DNA of 10,712 bases from the NCBI RefSeq assembly GCF_900637655.1, contig NZ_LR134384.1, forward strand, positions 3,157,501-3,168,212. The letters are read 5' to 3'. This DNA is from Segatella oris. GTDB taxonomy: Bacteria > Bacteroidota > Bacteroidia > Bacteroidales > Bacteroidaceae. The position numbers and the translations under genes were made by a program. The notes under the pieces are model-generated. The model saw nothing but the letters and a program-made list of their open reading frames with translations, ran no database searches and was not told the DNA's origin. Positions 737 to 10,643 of this stretch are shown one piece after another; within the stretch, counting starts at the first letter, position 1, and every line of letters starts with the position of its first letter.

Positions 737-1513
737 ATGAGATTTAAGATGACTTTCCGTATAGACCGCAGTCAGGGTGATTGTTTACCAATAAACTATC
801 AGTATGAACAGTCTGCGGTCATATATAAGATATTGTCGAATGCTGATAAAGCTTATTCGGCGTGGTTGCATGATAATGGCTTTCAGCTTGATAATGGAAA
901 GCATTTCAAGTTGTTCTGCTATTCGCGTTTTCAATTTGAGAAATATCGTATTATGAGAGCAGCAAAGTGTATTAATATCATAGGGGATAAGATAGAATGG
1001 TATGTCAGTTTCCTGCCCGAGAAGAGCACAGCTGAGTTTGTCCATGGTTTGTTTGCCAATCAGCATGTAGTGATTGGGAATAAGGATTATCGGGTAGCCT
1101 TGGATGTAGTCGGCATTGAGGCTTTATCTTCTAAGCCTTTAGAAGACGCAATGACTTTCCGTGTAAACTCTTCTGTCTGTATTCGGGAGAAGAAAGATAA
1201 TCGGGTACAATATCTTTCTCCTTTAGACAATCATTATAGGGAGGGCTTGTTGAAGGGGCTTCTTGCACGTTATGAATCGTTTTATGGCTGCCCTTTTGTG
1301 GGAGATATCTCTTCGTTTGGATTTGAGTTGCTGACTCATAAGCCGAAGTCTGTTCTTATTACAATCAAGGCTGACACTCCCGAGCAAACTCGCGTTCGTG
1401 GCTTTCGCTATGATTTCCGCTTGAAGGCTCCGATAGAATTGATGAAGATAGCCTATGAGGGTGGTTTGGGCGAATTGTGTTCTCAAGGTTTTGGATTTAT
1501 AGAAAATAAGTAG
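737..1513 (+). CDS. cas6: CRISPR-associated endoribonuclease Cas6
   Basis: Cas6 cuts the CRISPR precursor transcript inside each repeat to give mature crRNAs, and usually stays on the crRNA. The 258-aa length fits the family. The N-terminus (MRFKMTFRID, then LPINYQY at 17-23) is the usual first RAMP strand and turn. His45 in AWLHDNGF is the likely catalytic histidine by position. The C-terminus, GGLGELCSQGFGFIENK, is the glycine-rich loop typical of Cas6. The start at 737 gives the expected N-terminus. The gene ends 6 bases before cas8, so the two were probably co-transcribed as a type I-B operon. The reading frame is intact, so crRNA processing may survive even though cas8 is cut. Confidence 0.9.
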   Translation: MRFKMTFRIDRSQGDCLPINYQYEQSAVIYKILSNADKAYSAWLHDNGFQLDNGKHFKLFCYSRFQFEKYRIMRAAKCINIIGDKIEWYVSFLPEKSTAEFVHGLFANQHVVIGNKDYRVALDVVGIEALSSKPLEDAMTFRVNSSVCIREKKDNRVQYLSPLDNHYREGLLKGLLARYESFYGCPFVGDISSFGFELLTHKPKSVLITIKADTPEQTRVRGFRYDFRLKAPIELMKIAYEGGLGELCSQGFGFIENK

Positions 1514-1519
1514 TATACA

Positions 1520-2227
1520 ATGAAAGAAACGTATAGAAATGTGGATTATAAGTCTCTTTTTGAGATGACAGGAGATCCTTTTGTCGATGCAGGAGGTTTT
1601 GCCTTAGAAGAATTTGCTTCTCATTTTCCGGATTTAGATATATTGGAGTTGATAGTTAAAGCAACAAATATCTATGTAGATTGGTGGGATGCGAAAATTG
1701 ATTCATTCTTTTTAAATTCGAAAATTACTCAGCATGGATTTAAGAGTAGACAGAAGAAAGAAGAAACAGAAAAATATTTTCGTAGTCTATTGGAAGAAGC
1801 TGGAGGAAAAAAAGGGATATGTCGCTTGACGGGCAAAAAATGTCTTGTTTTTCCTGCAGGTAGGGATAATATGGTTTTAGGAGGTTCTCGAGCTTTTATT
1901 AATTTCCATCATAGTTTTGAAGAAGGATTGTTATTTTCTAAAGAGGTTTTGATAAAATATTTCTTTTTACCATTGGCTTGTGAACAAGTACAAGGAAAAA
2001 TAGCTTTGATAAGTAGTAATACTCCTGAAATTTCTCGTTTCTTTTCACAAGAGGTCTGCAAAGAAAACTTATCAGCTGTTGCACATAATAATTCTACCTC
2101 CATAAATAAAACGAAGGCAAATAATCCAAGTACCGCTTTATTTAGATATGCTGATCATGTAATTATATTAATCCGGCAAAACGAAATGTACCGCTTTGGT
2201 AAAACGAAATGTGATTATTTTGTGTAA
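1520..2227 (+). pseudogene. cas8b1: cas8b1/cst1, truncated by prophage insertion
   Basis: This is the N-terminal part of the large subunit (Cas8b1/Cst1 family) of a type I-B Cascade complex, which recognises the PAM and holds the target-strand complex for Cas3. Supporting features are its position directly after cas6, the CRLTGKKC cysteine pair (residues ~101-108) and the following GGSRAFINFHHSF stretch. The open frame is 235 codons, whereas full Cas8 proteins are usually about twice that or more. Native-looking sequence runs to about residue 212 (NPSTALFRYADHV). The last ~22 codons are read from the phage-end repeats and stop at 2225-2227. The product should lack the C-terminal half, so interference is expected to be lost. 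The family call rests on motif recollection and context, not a search. Confidence 0.75.
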
Positions 2228-2237
2228 AACGAAATGT
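2178..2237 (+). repeat. Three direct repeats, likely transposase-binding end sites
   Basis: AAAACGAAATGT occurs exactly at 2178-2189, 2201-2212 and 2226-2237. The start-to-start spacing is 23 and 25 bases, about two helical turns. The first two copies are preceded by GGC and GGT. In Mu, MuA binds three sites at each phage end with similar spacing to assemble the transpososome. The position, immediately inside the cas8 break, fits that role. An inverted set is expected at the opposite end of the prophage, outside this window. Confidence 0.7.
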
Positions 2238-2263
2238 GTTTTTTTCGAGCGCACACGTGCAAG

Positions 2264-2371: not shown

Positions 2372-3010
2372 TCAAACATTGAGTTCAAACCTCACCGTCT
2401 CATCACCATCAAGCAGCAACCTCGTGCGCTCCAAGTTATTCTCGTATATGTGCACGTTTCCGAGGTTCAGCGTTATGTTTTTCAGCGGCAGGTCTATCTG
2501 TCGCGACATGAGGTAAAGGTGGTATATATCTGCAGGTAACCCTAAATTAGCATCGCTGCTCCTTTGGTAGGCCGACAACACCAATTCTCCATCATCTATC
2601 TGGAACTGCACAAGGCTAAGGCAAGGAGCCTGATTACTCTCCGCATTGGTTTCACCAAGGAATAGCACATAATTCTTGCTGTTACGTTTCTCACGATTTA
2701 TTTTCGCTATCAGCGGTGGCAGTTTCTCAAAGTAGGTCGGATAACTGTTCACCAGCACGCTTCCGCAATAGTCCCACCAGTTTATTCCAACCTCACGATA
2801 TTTTTGCACCTGACGCTCGCCTTGCATGAACAGCTGCAGCTCATTTTTTAATTTCTTTCTTGCTATGCCGTGGCTCTCGAATATGTCGAGCAGGTCGACT
2901 GGAGATAATGACAGCTGCTCGTTGAGCAGGTAGCGGATACTGCCTTTTCTGTTATGTTGTGTCTTCCCTGAAACTATGATCCGCTTCAATATTTCGTGAT
3001 ATTTGTTCAT
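2372..3010 (-). CDS. Thymidylate synthase-like protein; predicted dCMP-type hydroxymethylase or methylase
   Basis: This protein is homologous to thymidylate synthase (ThyA), which adds a one-carbon group to C5 of dUMP using folate. It aligns along most of its 212 aa: KYHEILKR with HNRKGS (Arg21, phosphate-binding), NELQLFMQGE (Glu57), INWWDYCG (77-83), APCLSLVQFQIDDG with the nucleophile Cys130, YQRSSDANLGLPADI (Arg150, Asp153), and NVHIYENN (His187, Tyr189). Three things differ from ThyA. The conserved Asn of GLPFN is Asp161 (GLPAD), as in T4 dCMP hydroxymethylase. The phosphate-binding Arg-Arg pair (SRR) is SKN. The protein is about 50 residues shorter, lacking the C-terminal folate-closing tail. 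It overlaps the methyltransferase stop by 4 bases (ATGA), implying coupled translation. The fold is near certain; dCMP specificity is inferred from one residue. Confidence 0.75.
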   Translation of the reverse strand: MNKYHEILKRIIVSGKTQHNRKGSIRYLLNEQLSLSPVDLLDIFESHGIARKKLKNELQLFMQGERQVQKYREVGINWWDYCGSVLVNSYPTYFEKLPPLIAKINREKRNSKNYVLFLGETNAESNQAPCLSLVQFQIDDGELVLSAYQRSSDANLGLPADIYHLYLMSRQIDLPLKNITLNLGNVHIYENNLERTRLLLDGDETVRFELNV

Positions 3011-3861
3011 CGTTCGAATGGTATTTGAACAGTATTTTTATAAAGCATGATATCCGTATAAGAAGCGTTATAGTTCATGTGGGCATTGAACTCCCTACGG
3101 TGGCAGTTCTCAAAGGGGTTGCCGATGAGCTTGTTTTTACCTATCCATTCACAAAGCTCTGTTATGGAGGATTTGTTTGAAGTGAAGTAGATGAAACGAT
3201 GACCAGCAAGGATGGTTAGTATATCAAGGTAATCAGACAGTTTCCAATACATTTTGTATGTTTTGCTGTCTGTGCTCAAATATGGAGGGTCAACGAGGAA
3301 CACCACATCGGGTATATTCTTGTACTGCTCGAACAGCTGACGATAATCACATGAGGTAACGGTCAGGCCGTCAAGGTAGGTATCGGCAAGTGGGTAATCG
3401 GTGGCTTTTATTCTGTTATATAACGTTTCTTTCGACAACTCTTCATAGCAGGTAGCGTATTTCATCGAAAACAGGAGCGAGCCTGACAGAGTGATATAAT
3501 CGACATAACCGAAAGTGTGCTCATACTCGTGTATGCAGGAAAGGACGCTCCTACGCATGGCGCCTGCAATGGCTTTCTTTCTTGGATAATCGCACAGAAT
3601 GCTGCGCAGCCTGGAGAGCAATGCGTTGGTCTGTGGAATGTGCTCTAATCGCAGCCTATAACCGTCGAAGTCATTATAGACTACGGTGGAGTTCGGCTTC
3701 TGATGCTTGGCGATATGTGACAACAAACCGCTGCCACCGAAAAGATCCACGAAGGTCGTATTGTCAGGGAACTGTTGGAGTACTTTGATGTACTCTTTGG
3801 CGAACATCCGCTTCTGTCCCTGAAATGGAAGCGGCGCTGAAAGATATTGTTTCTTCATCAT
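3007..3861 (-). CDS. D12-class (Dam-like) DNA adenine N6-methyltransferase
   Basis: Such enzymes transfer methyl from S-adenosylmethionine to adenine N6 in a short DNA site. The 284 aa match the family's size and its alpha motif order: LPFQGQKRMF (11-20, the Dam-type N-terminal strand), FVDLFGGSG (37-45, motif I, AdoMet binding), and VDPPYLST (190-197, motif IV DPPY, catalysis). Between them lies the target-recognition region, whose sequence specificity cannot be read by eye. No restriction endonuclease gene adjoins it, so it is probably an orphan phage methylase protecting phage DNA or marking it. It is coupled to the next gene by an ATGA overlap and follows the small helix-turn-helix-like gene by 65 bases. 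Confidence 0.9.
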   Translation of the reverse strand: MMKKQYLSAPLPFQGQKRMFAKEYIKVLQQFPDNTTFVDLFGGSGLLSHIAKHQKPNSTVVYNDFDGYRLRLEHIPQTNALLSRLRSILCDYPRKKAIAGAMRRSVLSCIHEYEHTFGYVDYITLSGSLLFSMKYATCYEELSKETLYNRIKATDYPLADTYLDGLTVTSCDYRQLFEQYKNIPDVVFLVDPPYLSTDSKTYKMYWKLSDYLDILTILAGHRFIYFTSNKSSITELCEWIGKNKLIGNPFENCHRREFNAHMNYNASYTDIMLYKNTVQIPFER

Positions 3862-3926: not shown

Positions 3927-4175
3927 TTATACTGCAAATACATTACACTCACGGTTCATCCGCTTTATAAGACTGTACACAGTACGCTCACTCACGGCGT
4001 AGCGGGTTGACAATACTAACACGATATAGGAAACCTTCTCACCGCGCAGACGTAGTTCTGTATAATCATTGTAAAGGGCTATATACTGTTCGTCTTTCAA
4101 GCGTATACCGGCCTCGCGAAGCCTTTTTATCAATTCCCTGTTAAATTTCAAGATGTCTATTATCTTCATAATCAT
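3927..4175 (-). CDS. Small helix-turn-helix-like protein, possible phage regulator
   Basis: This is an 82-aa basic protein. Residues about 48-71 (VSYIVLVLSTRYAVSERT and following) read as a helix-turn-helix: a helix, a tight turn at the YAVSE position, and a second helix VYSLIKRMNRE. The general pattern (recognition helix after S-E-R-T-V) resembles Mor/C-type activators of Mu and RNA polymerase sigma-4-like domains, but the N-terminus (ILKFNRELIKRLREAGIRL) does not let me choose. ATGs at 4175 and 4169 are both possible starts. It leads the methyltransferase and thymidylate synthase-like genes and lies directly beside the proposed small RNA, so it may control that cassette. Function is inferred only from fold and place. 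Confidence 0.6.
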   Translation of the reverse strand: MIMKIIDILKFNRELIKRLREAGIRLKDEQYIALYNDYTELRLRGEKVSYIVLVLSTRYAVSERTVYSLIKRMNRECNVFAV

Positions 4176-4357: not shown

Positions 4358-4819
4358 CTACATCGTAAGCCAATCAAGTTTTTCTGCATCTTCGAACGTT
4401 CTGTCCGAACCTTTGTACGCTTTGAGGAGTTCTGCAGCATCGAGCGGGTCGATTTTAACTTCAACCTCTTTTTCAGCTAACGATTTGAGATACTCCTCGC
4501 CTTTTTTGTTCCACGCAGCAAACCAGGTATTGATTTCAGAGATTTCCTGCTTTTCAGCATCAGTCATACCGCGCACATCTTCCTTTGCCCGTCGCTCAAG
4601 TTCCTGCGCCTCTTTCACTCGCTGTTGCATCTTCTCAAACTCTTCGTCCTGAAGTGTTGCTCGTACCTCCTCGATATCTTTGTCGTAGGCCTCCGCAATA
4701 GGGCGTAAAACTTTGAGGTCCTTCCATATTGCGAGCATGGCTTCATTGCTCATACCCCCCACTTTCAACGCCTTTAATGCTCTGTAGGCTTCAACTGCCT
4801 TAATCGTTTTTACTTTCAT
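4358..4819 (-). CDS. Small coiled-coil phage protein, unknown function
   Basis: This is a 153-aa acidic, highly charged and mostly helical protein with no cysteine, signal or membrane segment. Residues about 44-83 (from YDKDIEEVRATL to QELERRAKEDV) are heptad-like and probably a coiled coil. The C-terminal part (DPLDAAELLKAYKGSDRTFE) could be a short helical hairpin. It starts MKVKTIKAV, similar to the MEVKVKAIA start of the gene before it, from which it is separated by 34 bases. It is the last gene of the late operon, ahead of the terminator. It could be a structural or assembly accessory, but nothing in the sequence shows which. Confidence 0.65.
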   Translation of the reverse strand: MKVKTIKAVEAYRALKALKVGGMSNEAMLAIWKDLKVLRPIAEAYDKDIEEVRATLQDEEFEKMQQRVKEAQELERRAKEDVRGMTDAEKQEISEINTWFAAWNKKGEEYLKSLAEKEVEVKIDPLDAAELLKAYKGSDRTFEDAEKLDWLTM

Positions 4820-4853
4820 TTTTACTTTAATTCTTACTAAATTACTTTGTTAT

Positions 4854-5174
4854 TTACTTTTCTTTTGCTTCTGTTGCATTGACTGTGCCGAGCTTCGCTG
4901 CGTTCGCCTTGCAGTACTTCACGAACTTTGCAACGTCGGTAACCACGCTGATGATTTCGTCTTCGTCAGTAGTCAGGTAACTGATGTTGATACCTCCGAA
5001 ATGCGCGAAAGTCGCGAGAAGTTCTTTGCTGGCCTCGTTGCTGCTTACACTTCCATTTTCGATGTTTGCATACTTGTCGTTTTCAACCGAAACAACGGCC
5101 TTGATAGTCGTACCTGTACCTACAGCTTCAACACTTGCCTTGAAGCCTGCAATTGCTTTTACTTTTACTTCCAT
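4854..5174 (-). CDS. Small phage protein, unknown function
   Basis: This 106-aa protein has an N-terminal half that looks like alternating short strands (VKVKAIAGFKASVEAV, then TTIKAVVSVEND). A more helical, Ala/Lys-rich C-terminus follows (DVAKFVKYCKANAAKLG). It begins 6 bases after the stop of the 368-aa gene, so it belongs to the tail-fibre operon. There is no signal peptide or membrane segment and no motif I recognise. A role as a fibre-associated or assembly protein is only suggested by position. Confidence 0.65.
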   Translation of the reverse strand: MEVKVKAIAGFKASVEAVGTGTTIKAVVSVENDKYANIENGSVSSNEASKELLATFAHFGGINISYLTTDEDEIISVVTDVAKFVKYCKANAAKLGTVNATEAKEK

Positions 5175-5180
5175 GATTGT

Positions 5181-6287
5181 CTATTTTAATTGATTAATAA
5201 AAGGGTTTAATTCTATAATATAAATTTCCTGCGTTACGGTCATGAACGTGTATTCAATCTTGTAGCGCTGTTCAGCCTTCAGGCCGCTAAAGATATGTGT
5301 GTATTTTGTTCCAGCTTCGATATCAGTAAAGGTGAACGCCTGCTCTCCTACCAGCATCGGAGATCCAAGCTCGCTTGTCGCAAATCTAAGTATGATATAG
5401 AAATTCTCATTGTTCGAAGTACGCACATAGTTGTCCTTTATCTCTACCTCTACGATAACACGTCCTCTGATGTCCTCACGCGCTTTAATCGAGAAGTAAT
5501 CGTGCATCTGCTGTGCATCAGAAACGATTTCTACAGCTGACGGTCTGAAGTCATGTATCGTGTAGTAGGTAGTAGCCTGTACTGGAGGTATGTTGAATGC
5601 AAGCGCCCTGGAACAAAGGAAAATATAGGCTTTATAGCTGCCAGTTGCGAAAATCATACCCTGCATTTCCACGCTTGTTCCCCCGTCTTTCAGAGGTTTG
5701 TCAGACGTTTTGAAATAAGCAATCTGTCCTGCAGCATTTTTCAGTGCAAGCCCGAAATAAGCCTCCGACAATTTACCGAATTCCTGCAGCGTCAGTTCGT
5801 TTTCCGTACCAAGACTTTTTATCATCATCGTTGCGAATACGCTGCCATTTTCATTTGTCTTGCTTGTGACAAAAGGCCTTTTGAAAGGCGCAGTCGCAGC
5901 ATGCTTGTAGCCTACGAAATCAGACAGCCGGTAAGGGCATGCAAATGTAGAACCTACTTTCACACGCGACCAGTTACTTTGTCCTTTGTCGTATAATTCT
6001 GTCAGACTTTGCAAAGTGCTGCTATGTGCGATTTTTATACCGCATATCCCAACCCCCTCAAAGTCCGCTCCCTTGAACCACGTTGCATTGTCACGCCATT
6101 TTCTATTTTCAAAATCGAACTCGTCTGAGGTAAAGGGCTTGTTCAGTTCCACGGGCTTGAACTTCGCCCACATATTTATTTTTTCACTTTTGCATAATGT
6201 TGCAAGGTCGTTACTCGTCTCACCGAGCACGGTCCTCACGTCCGCAATGCTGACAGGGGCCTGTATGATACCATTAATGATGCTCAT
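5181..6287 (-). CDS. Phage fibre-associated or head/tail decoration-like protein, unknown
   Basis: This 368-aa protein is encoded 2 bases after the tail-fibre stop. The N-terminus (GIIQAPVSIADVRTVLGE, then LATLCKSEKINMWAKFKPV) is a pattern I associate with hypothetical phage proteins of Bacteroidales, without known function. Residues about 75-250 contain short aromatic and glycine-rich strands. The last ~100 residues (RVIVEVEIKD to YKIEYTFMTVTQEIYIIEL) look like a beta-sandwich, with a FSGLKAEQRYKIEYTF stretch like a fibronectin type III or Ig-like domain, which often binds carbohydrate or other fibres on phage tails. Placement directly after the fibre suggests a fibre partner or second receptor-binding subunit. 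The role is inferred from context. Confidence 0.7.
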   Translation of the reverse strand: MSIINGIIQAPVSIADVRTVLGETSNDLATLCKSEKINMWAKFKPVELNKPFTSDEFDFENRKWRDNATWFKGADFEGVGICGIKIAHSSTLQSLTELYDKGQSNWSRVKVGSTFACPYRLSDFVGYKHAATAPFKRPFVTSKTNENGSVFATMMIKSLGTENELTLQEFGKLSEAYFGLALKNAAGQIAYFKTSDKPLKDGGTSVEMQGMIFATGSYKAYIFLCSRALAFNIPPVQATTYYTIHDFRPSAVEIVSDAQQMHDYFSIKAREDIRGRVIVEVEIKDNYVRTSNNENFYIILRFATSELGSPMLVGEQAFTFTDIEAGTKYTHIFSGLKAEQRYKIEYTFMTVTQEIYIIELNPFINQLK

Positions 6288-6289
6288 TT

Positions 6290-8671
6290 TCAGTTTCCTT
6301 TCAATTTTTCAATTTCTGTTTCAAGCACTTTTATCCGCTTCTTTAACCGCTCGACCTTATCGTCCACCTGCACGGCTGCACCTAATGCGAGTGCAATAAG
6401 TCGCGTGTCGAGGTAGTTCAGCTTCAGATAGCCTTTTGCATCTGTGTAAACCATGTTCCTTAGAACGCTTCCTTTCACGCTCTGCGCAATAAATCCTATA
6501 CTGTGCTCACCCGTGTCCTTGTAATCGAACTGCCAGGTTCCACCGAGCGAGCGAATTATCCGCATACTATCAACCTGCTTGATATTCGCTTTCAAACGCC
6601 TATCTGACGTGGTGTAAGCTGTTACGCCACCCTGCGCTAATACATTACCTGTAAAAATTGCAGTTCTGTCCCTGCTGATAACGAGTGCGTTCTGCCAGCC
6701 TTTGTTGTACACGTTAAATTGTAATTCATCACCCTCAAAAAGCGTGTAAAGTGGTCGGTCGTTGCAACCGAAATAAACAGTGTTAGAAGAGGATATGAAC
6801 AAGGCTCGCTGATTGCCTCCCTCCTTATCTTTCAGGCACAGACCCTTGTTATTTGCAAGGTAGAGAAAGCTGTTCACAAACAGCTCATCAGATATCCGCA
6901 TATTGCCGTTTACGTCAAGTTTGTAAACAGGAGTATTTGTACCAATACCAACGTTGTTTCCTGCTAAATGCAACAGATTATTGATATTCGTCACGCTGCT
7001 TAACTCCCCTGTGACATTGCCTGTACCGTCGAAATCCTGCCCCCAAATCTTGCGAGTTTGCTCAAGTTTTGTTGCACTGTTAACTTCACATTTAAGCAGC
7101 GTCCCGACATCAGAAGGCAGTTGCGGATAATAGTTGTTGTCACCATTCAAGGTGATATTGCTCTCTTCTAATACCGTGATGAATTTTGTGTAATCAAAAT
7201 CATTGAAAGGGGCCCAAATTGAGAATATTCCCGTATTTACATTGTAATAAAACTGCAAAGCATTTACTATGTCATTAAAGCTGCCCGTTGCACGTATATC
7301 AGCATCAAAGGATGATAAAGTAGAATTTACACGAAAAAGAAGCGTTATAAATCCAACCCCTTTGTGACGCGATATCATCGCAAAAATAAGTTTGTTGATT
7401 GACCACGGATATACTTTTTTTGATTTTGAAATACACCGATAGCCACCTCCGGCACCACCTTCTGTACTGACATCTAAACTTAGCTGTGTGACTTTCCCGT
7501 CCGAAGTCAGAATTTTTGAGTAATGCTTACCTCCTACAAATTCAGAATTCAGGTTATGGATCATGCTCGTGTTCTGCATTGTTCCACCGGCAAGAGATAA
7601 GTACTTACCCGTCACAACATCATCGGTCAACTGTGAGAGCTTCGTCAGGTTCTTTTCATCCCAAATTTTTATCCATTTTGCATCTTTGATTTGCTTACCG
7701 TCAGCTTCATTCTTGCGATAATATACGCTTTCATTTCGCTGCGTAGGGAGTGCGAGTTGACTAATCCAGTTCACGCTGTCATTTTTAGACCAGTCCATCG
7801 AAATGATATGTCGCCAATCATCGCCAATTCCGCTCTTTGTAGTCATCACAGCATAATAGCCAGCCTCGTCTGGTGCGAAATTGACTTCTCTGTGCGTCTT
7901 GAATGTATCGATAATACCATAGCCGTCAACGGTTGTAGGCTTATCTCGCAGCTGCGAGAAAGCGTGCGTGTGTGATATGCTTGCAGCGTCGGTGATGCCG
8001 TACCCCTGCAGAGTCGTAGGCTTATTCAACAGAGAAGCAAAAGTGTGCGAATGTGCTGCAGGATTGAACTCATTCGGTTTGTTCCTGATAATTGACCAGT
8101 CCACCGAGGTCAATGCGCCACCCTCAACTTTCTTTAATCGCTCGTTAAGGTCGTTACCGAGGAACGCAGAGAGGACGGCTGCTGCCTTTGCAGTAGTGTA
8201 GTCGCTCCAACGATCCAGGCGCTCATACGACATACCGCTACCTCCGCCACCTTGCACGGCGCCTGCACCGAATGCCGTCAATCCACCTGTTGCATACAGC
8301 CCCGCAGCCTTTCTTGTATCCGAAACACGTGTCAGTGAAAGTGCGCCGCTTTTCTCATCATAGCTGATTTTAATATCGCCGATAGTGACACCCTTGAGGA
8401 AATTTATCAACTCCTTGGCTGTATCTTCCTTATCCTTGCGCAGGAACTCATCGTATGCAGGGCTGTCCTCTGCCAAGGCCCGCGCTTTATCGGCATAGGC
8501 GGCCCGGGCTGCATCGTTTGCCTGCAGTGCCTTGTCTGCCTGTTCTGCAAACGTAGCCTTGTCTGCCGACAGTGCATGCCGCACGTCGTCACTCTGTGTC
8601 CAGGGCGTAGTGCTGCCACCCCTGCCGGTTCCCTCAGCCCGCTTTCGGGCAAACATCTTGATATCAATCAT
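6290..8671 (-). CDS. Tail fibre with C-terminal S74 self-cleaving chaperone domain
   Basis: This is a 793-aa receptor-binding fibre. A frame extension to TTG at 8680 is possible, but ATG 8671 is preferred: it overlaps the stop of the preceding gene as ATGATTGA. The N-terminal part is Ala/Asp/Lys-rich and helical (to ~95), followed by a QGGGGSG linker (~140-146). Two tandem units carry HSHTF (207-211) and HTHAF (234-238), each followed by a KPTT..GYGI stretch; H-x-H motifs bind metal ions in trimeric phage fibres. A region reading NNVGIGTNTPVYKLDVNGNM precedes the final domain. TSDRRLKANIK places Ser689 and Lys694 five apart, as in the S74 intramolecular chaperone dyad, which trimerises the fibre and then cuts itself off N-terminal to the Ser. 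A terminal coiled coil covers ~770-792. Confidence 0.9.
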   Translation of the reverse strand: MIDIKMFARKRAEGTGRGGSTTPWTQSDDVRHALSADKATFAEQADKALQANDAARAAYADKARALAEDSPAYDEFLRKDKEDTAKELINFLKGVTIGDIKISYDEKSGALSLTRVSDTRKAAGLYATGGLTAFGAGAVQGGGGSGMSYERLDRWSDYTTAKAAAVLSAFLGNDLNERLKKVEGGALTSVDWSIIRNKPNEFNPAAHSHTFASLLNKPTTLQGYGITDAASISHTHAFSQLRDKPTTVDGYGIIDTFKTHREVNFAPDEAGYYAVMTTKSGIGDDWRHIISMDWSKNDSVNWISQLALPTQRNESVYYRKNEADGKQIKDAKWIKIWDEKNLTKLSQLTDDVVTGKYLSLAGGTMQNTSMIHNLNSEFVGGKHYSKILTSDGKVTQLSLDVSTEGGAGGGYRCISKSKKVYPWSINKLIFAMISRHKGVGFITLLFRVNSTLSSFDADIRATGSFNDIVNALQFYYNVNTGIFSIWAPFNDFDYTKFITVLEESNITLNGDNNYYPQLPSDVGTLLKCEVNSATKLEQTRKIWGQDFDGTGNVTGELSSVTNINNLLHLAGNNVGIGTNTPVYKLDVNGNMRISDELFVNSFLYLANNKGLCLKDKEGGNQRALFISSSNTVYFGCNDRPLYTLFEGDELQFNVYNKGWQNALVISRDRTAIFTGNVLAQGGVTAYTTSDRRLKANIKQVDSMRIIRSLGGTWQFDYKDTGEHSIGFIAQSVKGSVLRNMVYTDAKGYLKLNYLDTRLIALALGAAVQVDDKVERLKKRIKVLETEIEKLKGN
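7904..8053 (-). repeat. Two tandem H-x-H repeat units inside the tail fibre gene
   Basis: These bases encode residues 207-256 of the fibre. They are two related ~27-residue units, HSHTFASLLNKPTTLQGYGI and HTHAFSQLRDKPTTVDGYGI, joined by TDAASIS. The units differ enough at the DNA level that they look old. Such units build the metal-binding shaft of phage fibres. Confidence 0.8.
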
Positions 8672-10371
8672 TGCTGTCAATTTCCTTTAATGTCAGTTCT
8701 GCCGTTCCCTCTGCAAGGTTTCTGCTGATACCCTGCACAAAGAAATTCTTGTTTAGAAAATTATGCCTATAGTGCGCAAACGGAATCTACAAACCCTCCG
8801 CGGATATCCGTCATGTGCTGTGTCATGATCACCCGTGGAGCATGATATTCCTGATAGTAGCTGTTCACATAGAGTTGCTCGGGTTTGGCCATGCTGTCTG
8901 TCATCCGACTGTAGAGCGTGAGTACGCCGTCACCACTGGCAGCGTCTACAGGCGTAGAGAGACAGAGGGCATTCTTGACACCTATCTGCATGCATTCGTC
9001 ATGCGTCAGTGCAGAGGTAACCTTGAACTCAAGGTCATCCTTGCGGTTGCAGAAGGAACTCTGTGCAGCACTCATATATACGATGTCATGATCATCCCCG
9101 AGCAACTCCGTCTTTCCATTGTCACTCACCACCTTCACCTCGAAAGACTTTATCTGTATGGAACTCACGTGTGCCAGCAGTGGAATGGCATCCTCGGTCC
9201 ACTTTGTGTGTCTGAAGAATGTAGGATGACGGCGTGTGATATCACTCCAAAGCACATTCACCGGACCAAGGACGATAAACCTTACCGCACCGCTCACATG
9301 GTCTCGTTTCCGAATAGGTATAGCCATACCTTCACTGTCTACGCCATGCTTCCAGCTGATGTTGTTCTGCAGGCTGTATTCGTGACCAATCAGTTTGTCA
9401 CCAATTTTCGGGTCAAAACCTATGGTGAACGACTGCTGATAATATTCATCATCACTGCTGCACTCCGAGCGCTCCTTGTACTTGCGCCACTCGAAATCTT
9501 CCATCTGCGAGCCGCTTCCTGTCTCAACGACGCATTTGTCACCGATGATAAGCATACAGGCTATGAGTCCTACTTTGCTGATTTTATCAGTTCCGTCACC
9601 CACGCTGCTGTACTTGAACTCATACAGCTCGGGGGCAGTGTCTGTGAATGGATACCACCCACTATCGCCACTTTCGTCCCAGCGGGTCTCTTCATTATGT
9701 TTAGGGTCCGAGTATGTCTGTTTCCAGAATTTGCGCGTATAGTAGAGTCTGTCTCCTTTTTTGTTCTTTGTCACATTCCCTCTTACGTCAACCTTGCCTT
9801 CAGGTGGTGTTCCGCCGAACGGCATGAACACCCATTCCTTAGTCCGGAGGTCGTAGTATTTGGCTGTTACTTTCACGGTTGGGTTCAGGAGCATTTCCCT
9901 GAAAACACAATATAGTTCGTTGTCTCCTCATCGACAGGGAAAACATCCCCCCGGAATGCTGACTCACATAAGTGGCATAAGGAAATGGCACTGCGAAGAG
10001 CAGACTCGTTCGGATACGCCTCTGCAGCACTGTTCTTTCCGTTACCGTTCACCGACAGCACCAGGACATTGTCCATGTTGATTTTCGACACGGGCTGTTG
10101 TCTTTTCTGGCCATGGCCCGCTCCACCTTGCCATAGGAAAACGAGCGCTGCCCAAGGTTCTTGCCGAGCCACTGCAGCAACGCCTGCTGGTCCTTACCGC
10201 CACGGCCGAAGTGAACCATGAGTTCCTCACCGCTGCCAGTGCCCCCATGCATGGGGAAACGCCACGAAACATGATGCTTCAACCACACATACCAATCCAC
10301 GATGCTTCCATCATAGTCGGTATCACCTTCAAGCACCAAATCTCTGAAACCTCTATAGGCTCGTTTTCCAT
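8664..10371 (-). pseudogene. Tail/baseplate-region protein broken by four single-base frameshifts
   Basis: Five reading-frame segments join into one ~569-aa protein. The start is ATG 10371 (MENEPIEVSEI). Segments run to a T run at 10338-10340, a C run (minus strand) at 10092-10094, an A run at 9894-9896, and a TT at 8784-8785, then to stop TGA 8666-8664. Adding one base at the first three places and removing one at the fourth makes the 1708 bases an exact 570 codons and gives smooth joins: SEILVLEGDTDYDG, KDNSPVSKINMDN, FSGKMLLNPTVKV, GFVDPFAHYRHNF. The largest intact piece is 9894-8767. The C-terminus (FFVQGISRNLAEGTAELTLK) overlaps the tail-fibre start. The position upstream of the fibre suggests a large tail or baseplate protein; I do not recognise the family. 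It may be true decay or assembly error. Confidence 0.7.
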
Positions 10372-10643
10372 CGCCTAAGCTGAATCAGTTCTGACATGTA
10401 TTTCTGCCGTGCTGCGAAATAACTCCCGAGCGCACTTTCCTCCAGGCTTTCGATGAGACTTTCCATTTTCTCAACCTTACAGGTCAGCAGCAGCTGGTTG
10501 TAGATTTCGCCGACGCTGATGGTGGTATCCGTTCCTGAGACCTTATCTGTCGTTATCCCTATCAGTCTGTGAGGTGTAGTCAGAGGCTTGTTGCTGTAAA
10601 GGTCTTTCCATGCGATGTTTTCTGCCTTTTTTACATTCTCCAT
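10353..10643 (-). CDS. Small phage protein, unknown function
   Basis: This is a 96-aa protein starting MENVKKAENIAWKDL. It has a likely beta/loop N-terminal half (KPLTTPHRLIGITTDKVSG, then TISVGEIYNQLLL) and a helical C-terminal half (KVEKMESLIESLEESALGSYF). It overlaps the start of the next, broken tail gene by 19 bases, so both belong to one late operon. No family is recognised. The ~70 bases before it, to the window edge, are too short to assign to a gene. Confidence 0.6.
   Translation of the reverse strand: MENVKKAENIAWKDLYSNKPLTTPHRLIGITTDKVSGTDTTISVGEIYNQLLLTCKVEKMESLIESLEESALGSYFAARQKYMSELIQLRRWKTSL

Follow-up and report, generated by a model that had tools for sequence, protein, structure and literature searches.

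What does a phage gene do that is filed as a thymidylate synthase (TS) and carries Asp where the residue that reads the uracil ring is Asn? The question is raised by a gene at the end of a prophage of Segatella oris, in a stretch of 10,712 nucleotides that was analysed as a whole and is called the window below. Its features are the following:

2166..2240, no strand assigned: prophage end; the sequence common to three places in the genome starts near 2166.
2372..3010, minus strand: TS-like gene; ATG start, 212 aa, TS fold, with Asp161, Cys130, Gln127, Leu131 and Lys112-Asn113, and without a C-terminal tail.
3007..3861, minus strand: D12-class DNA methyltransferase with a VDPPY motif (PF02086, E 1.2e-8; PHROG_56, E 5.1e-35; PADLOC MTase_II, E 2.1e-56).
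3927..4175, minus strand: small helix-turn-helix (HTH) protein (PHROG_17790; Pfam HTH and Mor matches below cut-offs), first gene of an apparent HTH-methyltransferase-TS cluster.
4358..10643, minus strand: remaining late region of the phage within the window; the S74-chaperone tail fibre lies in it.
6290-8680, minus strand: large tail-fibre protein with an S74 intramolecular chaperone end (from the ORF scan).

The TS-like gene ends a Mu-like, hankyphage-like prophage, in which the minus strand reads tail genes, HTH, D12 methyltransferase, TS-like gene and phage end, the methyltransferase frame overlapping the TS-like start codon by 4 bases. This prophage end occurs three times in the genome, with a repeated sequence that takes in both the TS-like and the methyltransferase genes; insertion at three sites of a single genome is in keeping with transposition by the phage. 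At the end itself, AAAACGAAATGT occurs three times as a direct repeat (at 2178, 2201 and 2226), possibly as sites for the transposase; inverted copies of this 12-mer lie near a phage end at the start of the genome record. As the window reaches the end of the record, the record start was taken to continue its prophage; there, genes for TerL, a MuB-like protein, a transposase and a CI-like repressor are related to those of Bacteroides phage p00 (transposase 54% and MuB-like 64% identical), with matches to PHROG_310, PHROG_296 and PHROG_4. If the record start does continue the prophage, the p00-related transposase, MuB-like protein and CI-like repressor by which a hankyphage-like transposable phage is recognized are thus all present. 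Promoter- and terminator-like sites were about as numerous as in shuffled sequences. Within a few genes of the TS-like gene, a relative of the HTH protein occurs in 103 of 161 related loci. A comparable arrangement is the com-mom pair of phage Mu, where a DNA-modification gene also lies at the end of a transposable phage, past the tail-fibre genes; Mom, however, modifies adenine in DNA by a chemistry unrelated to the TS fold, and any likeness of the HTH protein to Com is putative.

Phage p00, which we take to be the hankyphage, is likewise transposable and encodes an orthologue of the TS-like protein (83% identical, annotated as thymidylate synthase/ThyA) beside a DNA methyltransferase, although the order is TS then methyltransferase in p00 and methyltransferase then TS in the window. 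The window phage is a more distant relative of p00 (TerL, for example, is 35% identical), and unlike in p00, no reverse transcriptase match was found in the ORFs scanned between the tail fibre and the TS-like gene. The orthologous gene is also present in the jmh43_hp record, by strain name the phage of PMC12135933, passages of which state that all hankyphage genes are expressed, so that the hankyphage orthologue is transcribed. The prophage end lies inside a gene (1520-2227, plus strand) directly after cas6 (737-1513, plus strand). This gene matches the PADLOC Cas8b model at positions 2-208 of 477 (E 5.8e-11) and has no Pfam or NCBIfam match. Cas8b model positions 230-471 are matched about 110 kb away (G000:C1:3047079-3047789, minus strand), and this split suggests either that copies of the prophage have undergone rearrangement with one another or that the assembly was joined within repeats.

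Does the protein belong to the TS superfamily, and how conserved is it? The TS fold spans its whole chain, with matches to PF00303 (E 2.4e-20, 73.2 bits against a Pfam cut-off of 24.3) and PHROG_160 (thymidylate synthase, E 3.8e-28); the protein falls short of the cut-off for each of the eight NCBIfam equivalogs listed, scoring 62.8 where the best hit requires 327 and 57.8 where TIGR03284 requires 108.35. Wherever a source supplied a name, it was thymidylate synthase, bar one 'hypothetical protein' among 120 relatives listed out of 8000. Conservation was followed in 320 distinct members, counting that of the window. This sample leans towards close relatives; identical sequences are merged in it, and matches under 200 bits and proteins outside 205-225 aa were dropped at one step. 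Against 8 relatives, the TS-like gene has a dN of 0.065-0.112 and a dS of 0.74-0.92 per site (pairwise counts, with dS at or near saturation); it is a selected gene under strong purifying selection, not a chance ORF.

Compared with ThyA, five changes surround the active site: Asn177 to Asp, His147 to Leu, Leu143 to Gln, Arg126-Arg127 to Lys-Asn, and the loss of the C-terminal tail. The Asn-to-Asp switch, on which the preliminary description of this DNA had been built, is borne out by a gapless stretch of the TS-like protein and E. coli ThyA (YQRSSDANLGLPADI / YQRSCDVFLGLPFNI) that sets Asp161 opposite Asn177. A MAFFT alignment places it in one column with the Asn of Bacteroidota ThyA and with Asp179 of T4 gp42, so the statement that T4 dCMP hydroxymethylase has Asp at the same place holds as well; this residue match is one of sequence alignment, the fold searches giving ranges only. 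Asp161, Arg150, Ser151, Asp153, His187 and Tyr189 are invariant (320/320), and Cys130 and Glu57 each occur in 319 of the 320. Of the active-site residues first listed as shared with ThyA, only 'Arg21' needs correcting: its position is Lys in 204 and Arg in 102 of the 320 members. The Lys-Asn pair recognized earlier in place of the phosphate Arg pair is found in every member (Lys112-Asn113). Three residues before the catalytic Cys, Gln127 is likewise fixed (320/320) where E. coli ThyA has Leu143 and T4 gp42 has Asp145, and Leu131 follows the Cys in 319 of 320 where ThyA has His147. The chain stops some 40 residues early and has no tail closing the site; the shortness already pointed out (212 aa) is mainly due to this missing tail and to a shorter loop after Trp-Trp-Asp, a four-residue gap also lying in the helix after Asp161.

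Is this then another T4-type dCMP hydroxymethylase? The TS-like protein resembles T4 gp42 in its Asp for Asn177, its Cys and Glu, the absence of a C-terminal tail and of His147, and an Asn-Ser before the Tyr region. Passages of PMC6400193 define the hydroxymethylase signature as an Asp/Glu three before the Cys (Asp145 in T4, where D145N abolishes activity), Ser94-x-Tyr96 and an Arg123/Arg124 pair. The TS-like protein, in contrast, has Gln at the first place; Asn88-Ser89-Tyr90 without spacer at the second, where the loop alignment is uncertain; and Lys112-Asn113, in all 320 members, for the pair that grips the phosphate from the partner subunit in T4. Tyr90 or Tyr93 could be the catalytic Tyr, as the stretches 78-89 and 121-128 of the AlphaFold model have a pLDDT below 50. 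On these three signature residues, filing under T4 gp42 was rejected. By sequence the family is closer to ThyA than to T4 gp42. In a tree of 22 rows, a 99/97 branch separates the family, on the ThyA side, from T4 gp42 and three others; its stem has about 5 changes per column, and branches of such length, as the program warns, may mislead. In turn, hhalign against the single T4 sequence aligned residues 128-193 only (probability 8, E 0.004). This suggests a switch to cytosine that may have been made independently of T4 gp42. In a viral fold library, the Gp42 dCMP hydroxymethylase of Acinetobacter phage Acj9 came at rank 7; T4 gp42 and MilA were not among the best 50 matches of either PDB fold search, which proves nothing.

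The CMP hydroxymethylases MilA and BcmA, by their description in passages of PMC5175136, share with the TS-like protein the Asp at the base-reading site and a Lys at the Arg126 place, and differ from it in an Ala (Ala176) at the Ser167 place that gives ribose preference, where the family has Ser151 (320/320); of the Lys and Ala that such an enzyme requires, the family thus has only the Lys, as Lys112. Their setting is antibiotic, that of the TS-like gene a phage. According to the same passages, the MilA variant A176S, which combines Lys and Ser as the TS-like protein does, loses CMP activity and gains dCMP activity. Passages of the MetaGPA study (PMC8670742) single out positions 177 and 147 as those that differ most between the TS of cytosine-modified phage contigs and the rest, and cite Asn-to-Asp mutants of ordinary TS making 5mdCMP. 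By its readable features the TS-like enzyme is cytosine-like, yet it fully matches none of the three known types.

Two other phages carry variants of their own. Edwardsiella phage KF-1 (L204, 1983-2780) has a full-length TS with Asp at 177 that retains His147 and the C-terminal tail, near nucleotide pyrophosphohydrolase and dCMP deaminase genes, and it looks like a dCMP methylase candidate. In Nonlabens phage P12024S (L167, 1124-1496), two short adjacent ORFs resemble only the C-terminal part of the TS-like family and end in HIYENN..KFELNV; they may be a decayed or very divergent relative, and this phage also has a DNA methyltransferase gene.

How tightly is the gene bound to its methyltransferase neighbour? 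Related-locus searches covered the best 80 of 236, the best 80 of 244 and, for a second set found with a 68%-identical relative, the best 80 of 214 matches. Among 160 loci (80 viral and 80 genome contigs, some holding one and the same phage), the D12 methyltransferase lies beside the TS-like gene on the same strand in 131, some of them redundant (67 upstream, 64 downstream); in 29 it was not found, contig ends truncating some of these. When called genes are clustered, it ranks as first or second neighbour in 121 of 161 loci. The second set comprises 79 loci, none of its rows being dropped and at least 4 of its contigs also being in the first set; the main methyltransferase is present in 41 of them (21 upstream, 20 downstream; 40 at a stricter cut-off). 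Eleven second-set loci with at least 900 bases downstream are without it. Four of these have another DNA methyltransferase directly adjoining (three D12, one N6_N4), and in the other 7, no directly adjoining methyltransferase was seen by eye in the first 110 residues of the called ORFs. A D12 neighbour is also present in L282, a second-set locus with a shorter flank, and tblastn did not link the four D12 and one N6_N4 neighbours to the main methyltransferase. Conversely, the TS-like gene adjoins in 70 of 103 methyltransferase-seeded loci and is absent in 32, one being without a methyltransferase hit; these loci are partly redundant and not independent, as the two seeded searches share contigs. 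In 18 of these 32, the sequence past the methyltransferase is shorter than 600 bases; in the other 14 it is 1 kb or longer. The two genes are strongly linked, though one can occur without the other. A PDB sequence search with the window's D12 methyltransferase gave no match up to E 1, and for its counterpart in the second-set locus L226 Pfam gave none up to E 0.001. A different neighbour follows the TS-like gene in the first-set loci L021, L110 and L162, where other loci have the methyltransferase: a protein of 368 aa that matches an ABC ATPase and, below threshold, GNAT. In L162 (3335-4904), a Formyl_trans_N (formyltransferase-like) gene comes next. This may be an alternative modification pair.

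Taken together, the TS-like protein is probably a folate-dependent enzyme of the TS fold that modifies C5 of cytosine on a nucleotide, most likely dCMP, within a phage DNA-modification module. By homology, Cys130 would attack C6 of the ring, while Asp161, in place of the uracil-reading Asn, would hold or protonate cytosine N3; Glu57 and Asp153 would serve methylene-tetrahydrofolate, the carbon donor, Arg150/Ser151 would hold the 5' phosphate and His187/Tyr189 the 3'-OH. With no tail sealing the site, the exocyclic methylene would be captured by water (5-hydroxymethyl) rather than by hydride (5-methyl). For this reason, 5-hydroxymethyl-dCMP may be favoured over 5-methyl-dCMP, a preference that is weak because Gln127 is not the catalytic Asp of T4. 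Built into the DNA that is synthesized during the lytic cycle, the product would shield this DNA from restriction jointly with the co-encoded methyltransferase. A nucleotide route wants a kinase and often a dCTPase; neither is named among the 20 phage ORFs scanned nor in the p00 annotation, both with many genes of unknown function, and the kinase might come from the host, or incorporation might be partial.

Several points speak for this explanation: the near-complete conservation of Asp161 and Cys130, the Asp at 177 and the loss of His147 at the very positions set out in passages of PMC8670742, the Lys/Ser precedent of MilA A176S in those of PMC5175136, and the T4 enzyme, which works without a C-terminal tail according to passages of PMC6400193. 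To these are added the methyltransferase adjacency, the purifying selection, and a ThyA in 16 of 17 other carrier genomes with ThyX in the 17th. Against it stand Gln127 for the Asp needed in T4, the absent Ser-x-Tyr spacing, the lost phosphate Arg pair, the lack of a named kinase or dCTPase in the ORFs and annotation just cited, and the loci without the pairing (29/160 of the first set, the 14/32 seeded loci with at least 1 kb, 7/11 of the second set). Published mutants back the residues on which the cytosine reading depends; the substrate, the product and the role are inferred. The preliminary description, which had proposed a divergent C5-pyrimidine modifying enzyme, is strengthened by an Asn-to-Asp switch fixed in the sampled family together with the His147 loss and the phage cluster with a methyltransferase; its pointing to T4 gp42 is not sustained, the signature being absent.

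Part of the probability given to the cytosine explanation, a smaller and tentative share, goes to a dCMP methylase, in which hydride transfer would yield 5-methyl-dCMP. The 5mdCMP-making mutants cited in passages of PMC8670742, the nearness to ThyA rather than to T4 gp42, and the missing water-activating Asp/Glu are all consistent with it; the tail that seals the site of E. coli TS for the methylation reaction (passages of PMC6400193) is, however, precisely what the TS-like protein lacks.

Could the substrate instead be cytosine already in DNA, or another large molecule? In this rather unlikely alternative, the TS-fold enzyme would transfer a folate one-carbon unit to C5 of cytosines in the DNA itself, with the adjacent methyltransferase as its guide or partner. 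Both the Arg pair gripping a free 5' phosphate and the tail capping the site are lost, the frequent neighbours are DNA methyltransferases, the kinase or dCTPase of a nucleotide route was not noticed in the ORFs and annotation cited above, and a temperate transposing phage would presumably share the nucleotide pool of its host. The residues that hold the free 3'-OH in TS (His187 and Tyr189) are nevertheless invariant, as are Arg150 and Ser151, and the sugar-binding pair speaks for a nucleotide substrate; we know of no TS-fold enzyme that acts on DNA. If true, this would be the first such enzyme to work on polynucleotides, and transposable Bacteroidota phages would possess in it a mom-like device.

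That the phage carries an ordinary thymidylate synthase to boost dTMP while it grows is very improbable. The Pfam, PHROGs and NCBIfam matches are all thymidylate synthase, and the window's own host has ThyX and no PF00303 match in its genome besides the three prophage copies. A dUMP-specific ThyA, in contrast, requires Asn at 177, where all members have Asp, and all the NCBIfam equivalog scores are below cut-off. Moreover, of 17 other carriers (from the 80 genome loci, all named isolates), 16 encode a full-length ThyA (E 3.1e-125 or better) in addition to the phage gene, which makes a role in thymidylate supply unlikely. ThyA identity was rejected on Asp161 and these ThyA/ThyX counts. A non-catalytic or regulatory TS relic, which the loss of two active-site Arg and the tail could suggest, is the least credible reading of all, given the strong purifying selection and the full or almost full conservation of the catalytic Cys, Glu57, Arg150, Asp153, His187 and Tyr189.

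Among the open-access papers listed by literature searches, no account of the TS-like gene in transposable Bacteroidota phages was found, nor any published base analysis of such a phage. The word 'thymidylate' is absent from the main texts of PMC12135933, PMC6199706 and PMC12629997; PMC7644841 and PMC10354031 mention thymidylate synthase, in other phages to judge by their titles.

As prophages, hankyphages and their kin are widespread in gut Bacteroidota; their TS-like gene has been filed as a thymidylate synthase, and the family is a coherent variant of the TS fold in this common phage group. If its product is indeed a modified cytosine, a common group of gut prophages would carry an unrecognised DNA modification, with consequences for restriction, for the host range of phages, and for methylome and hmC measurements made on gut samples. 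The TS fold would then also have reached cytosine by another route, with an active-site solution that differs from that of T4.
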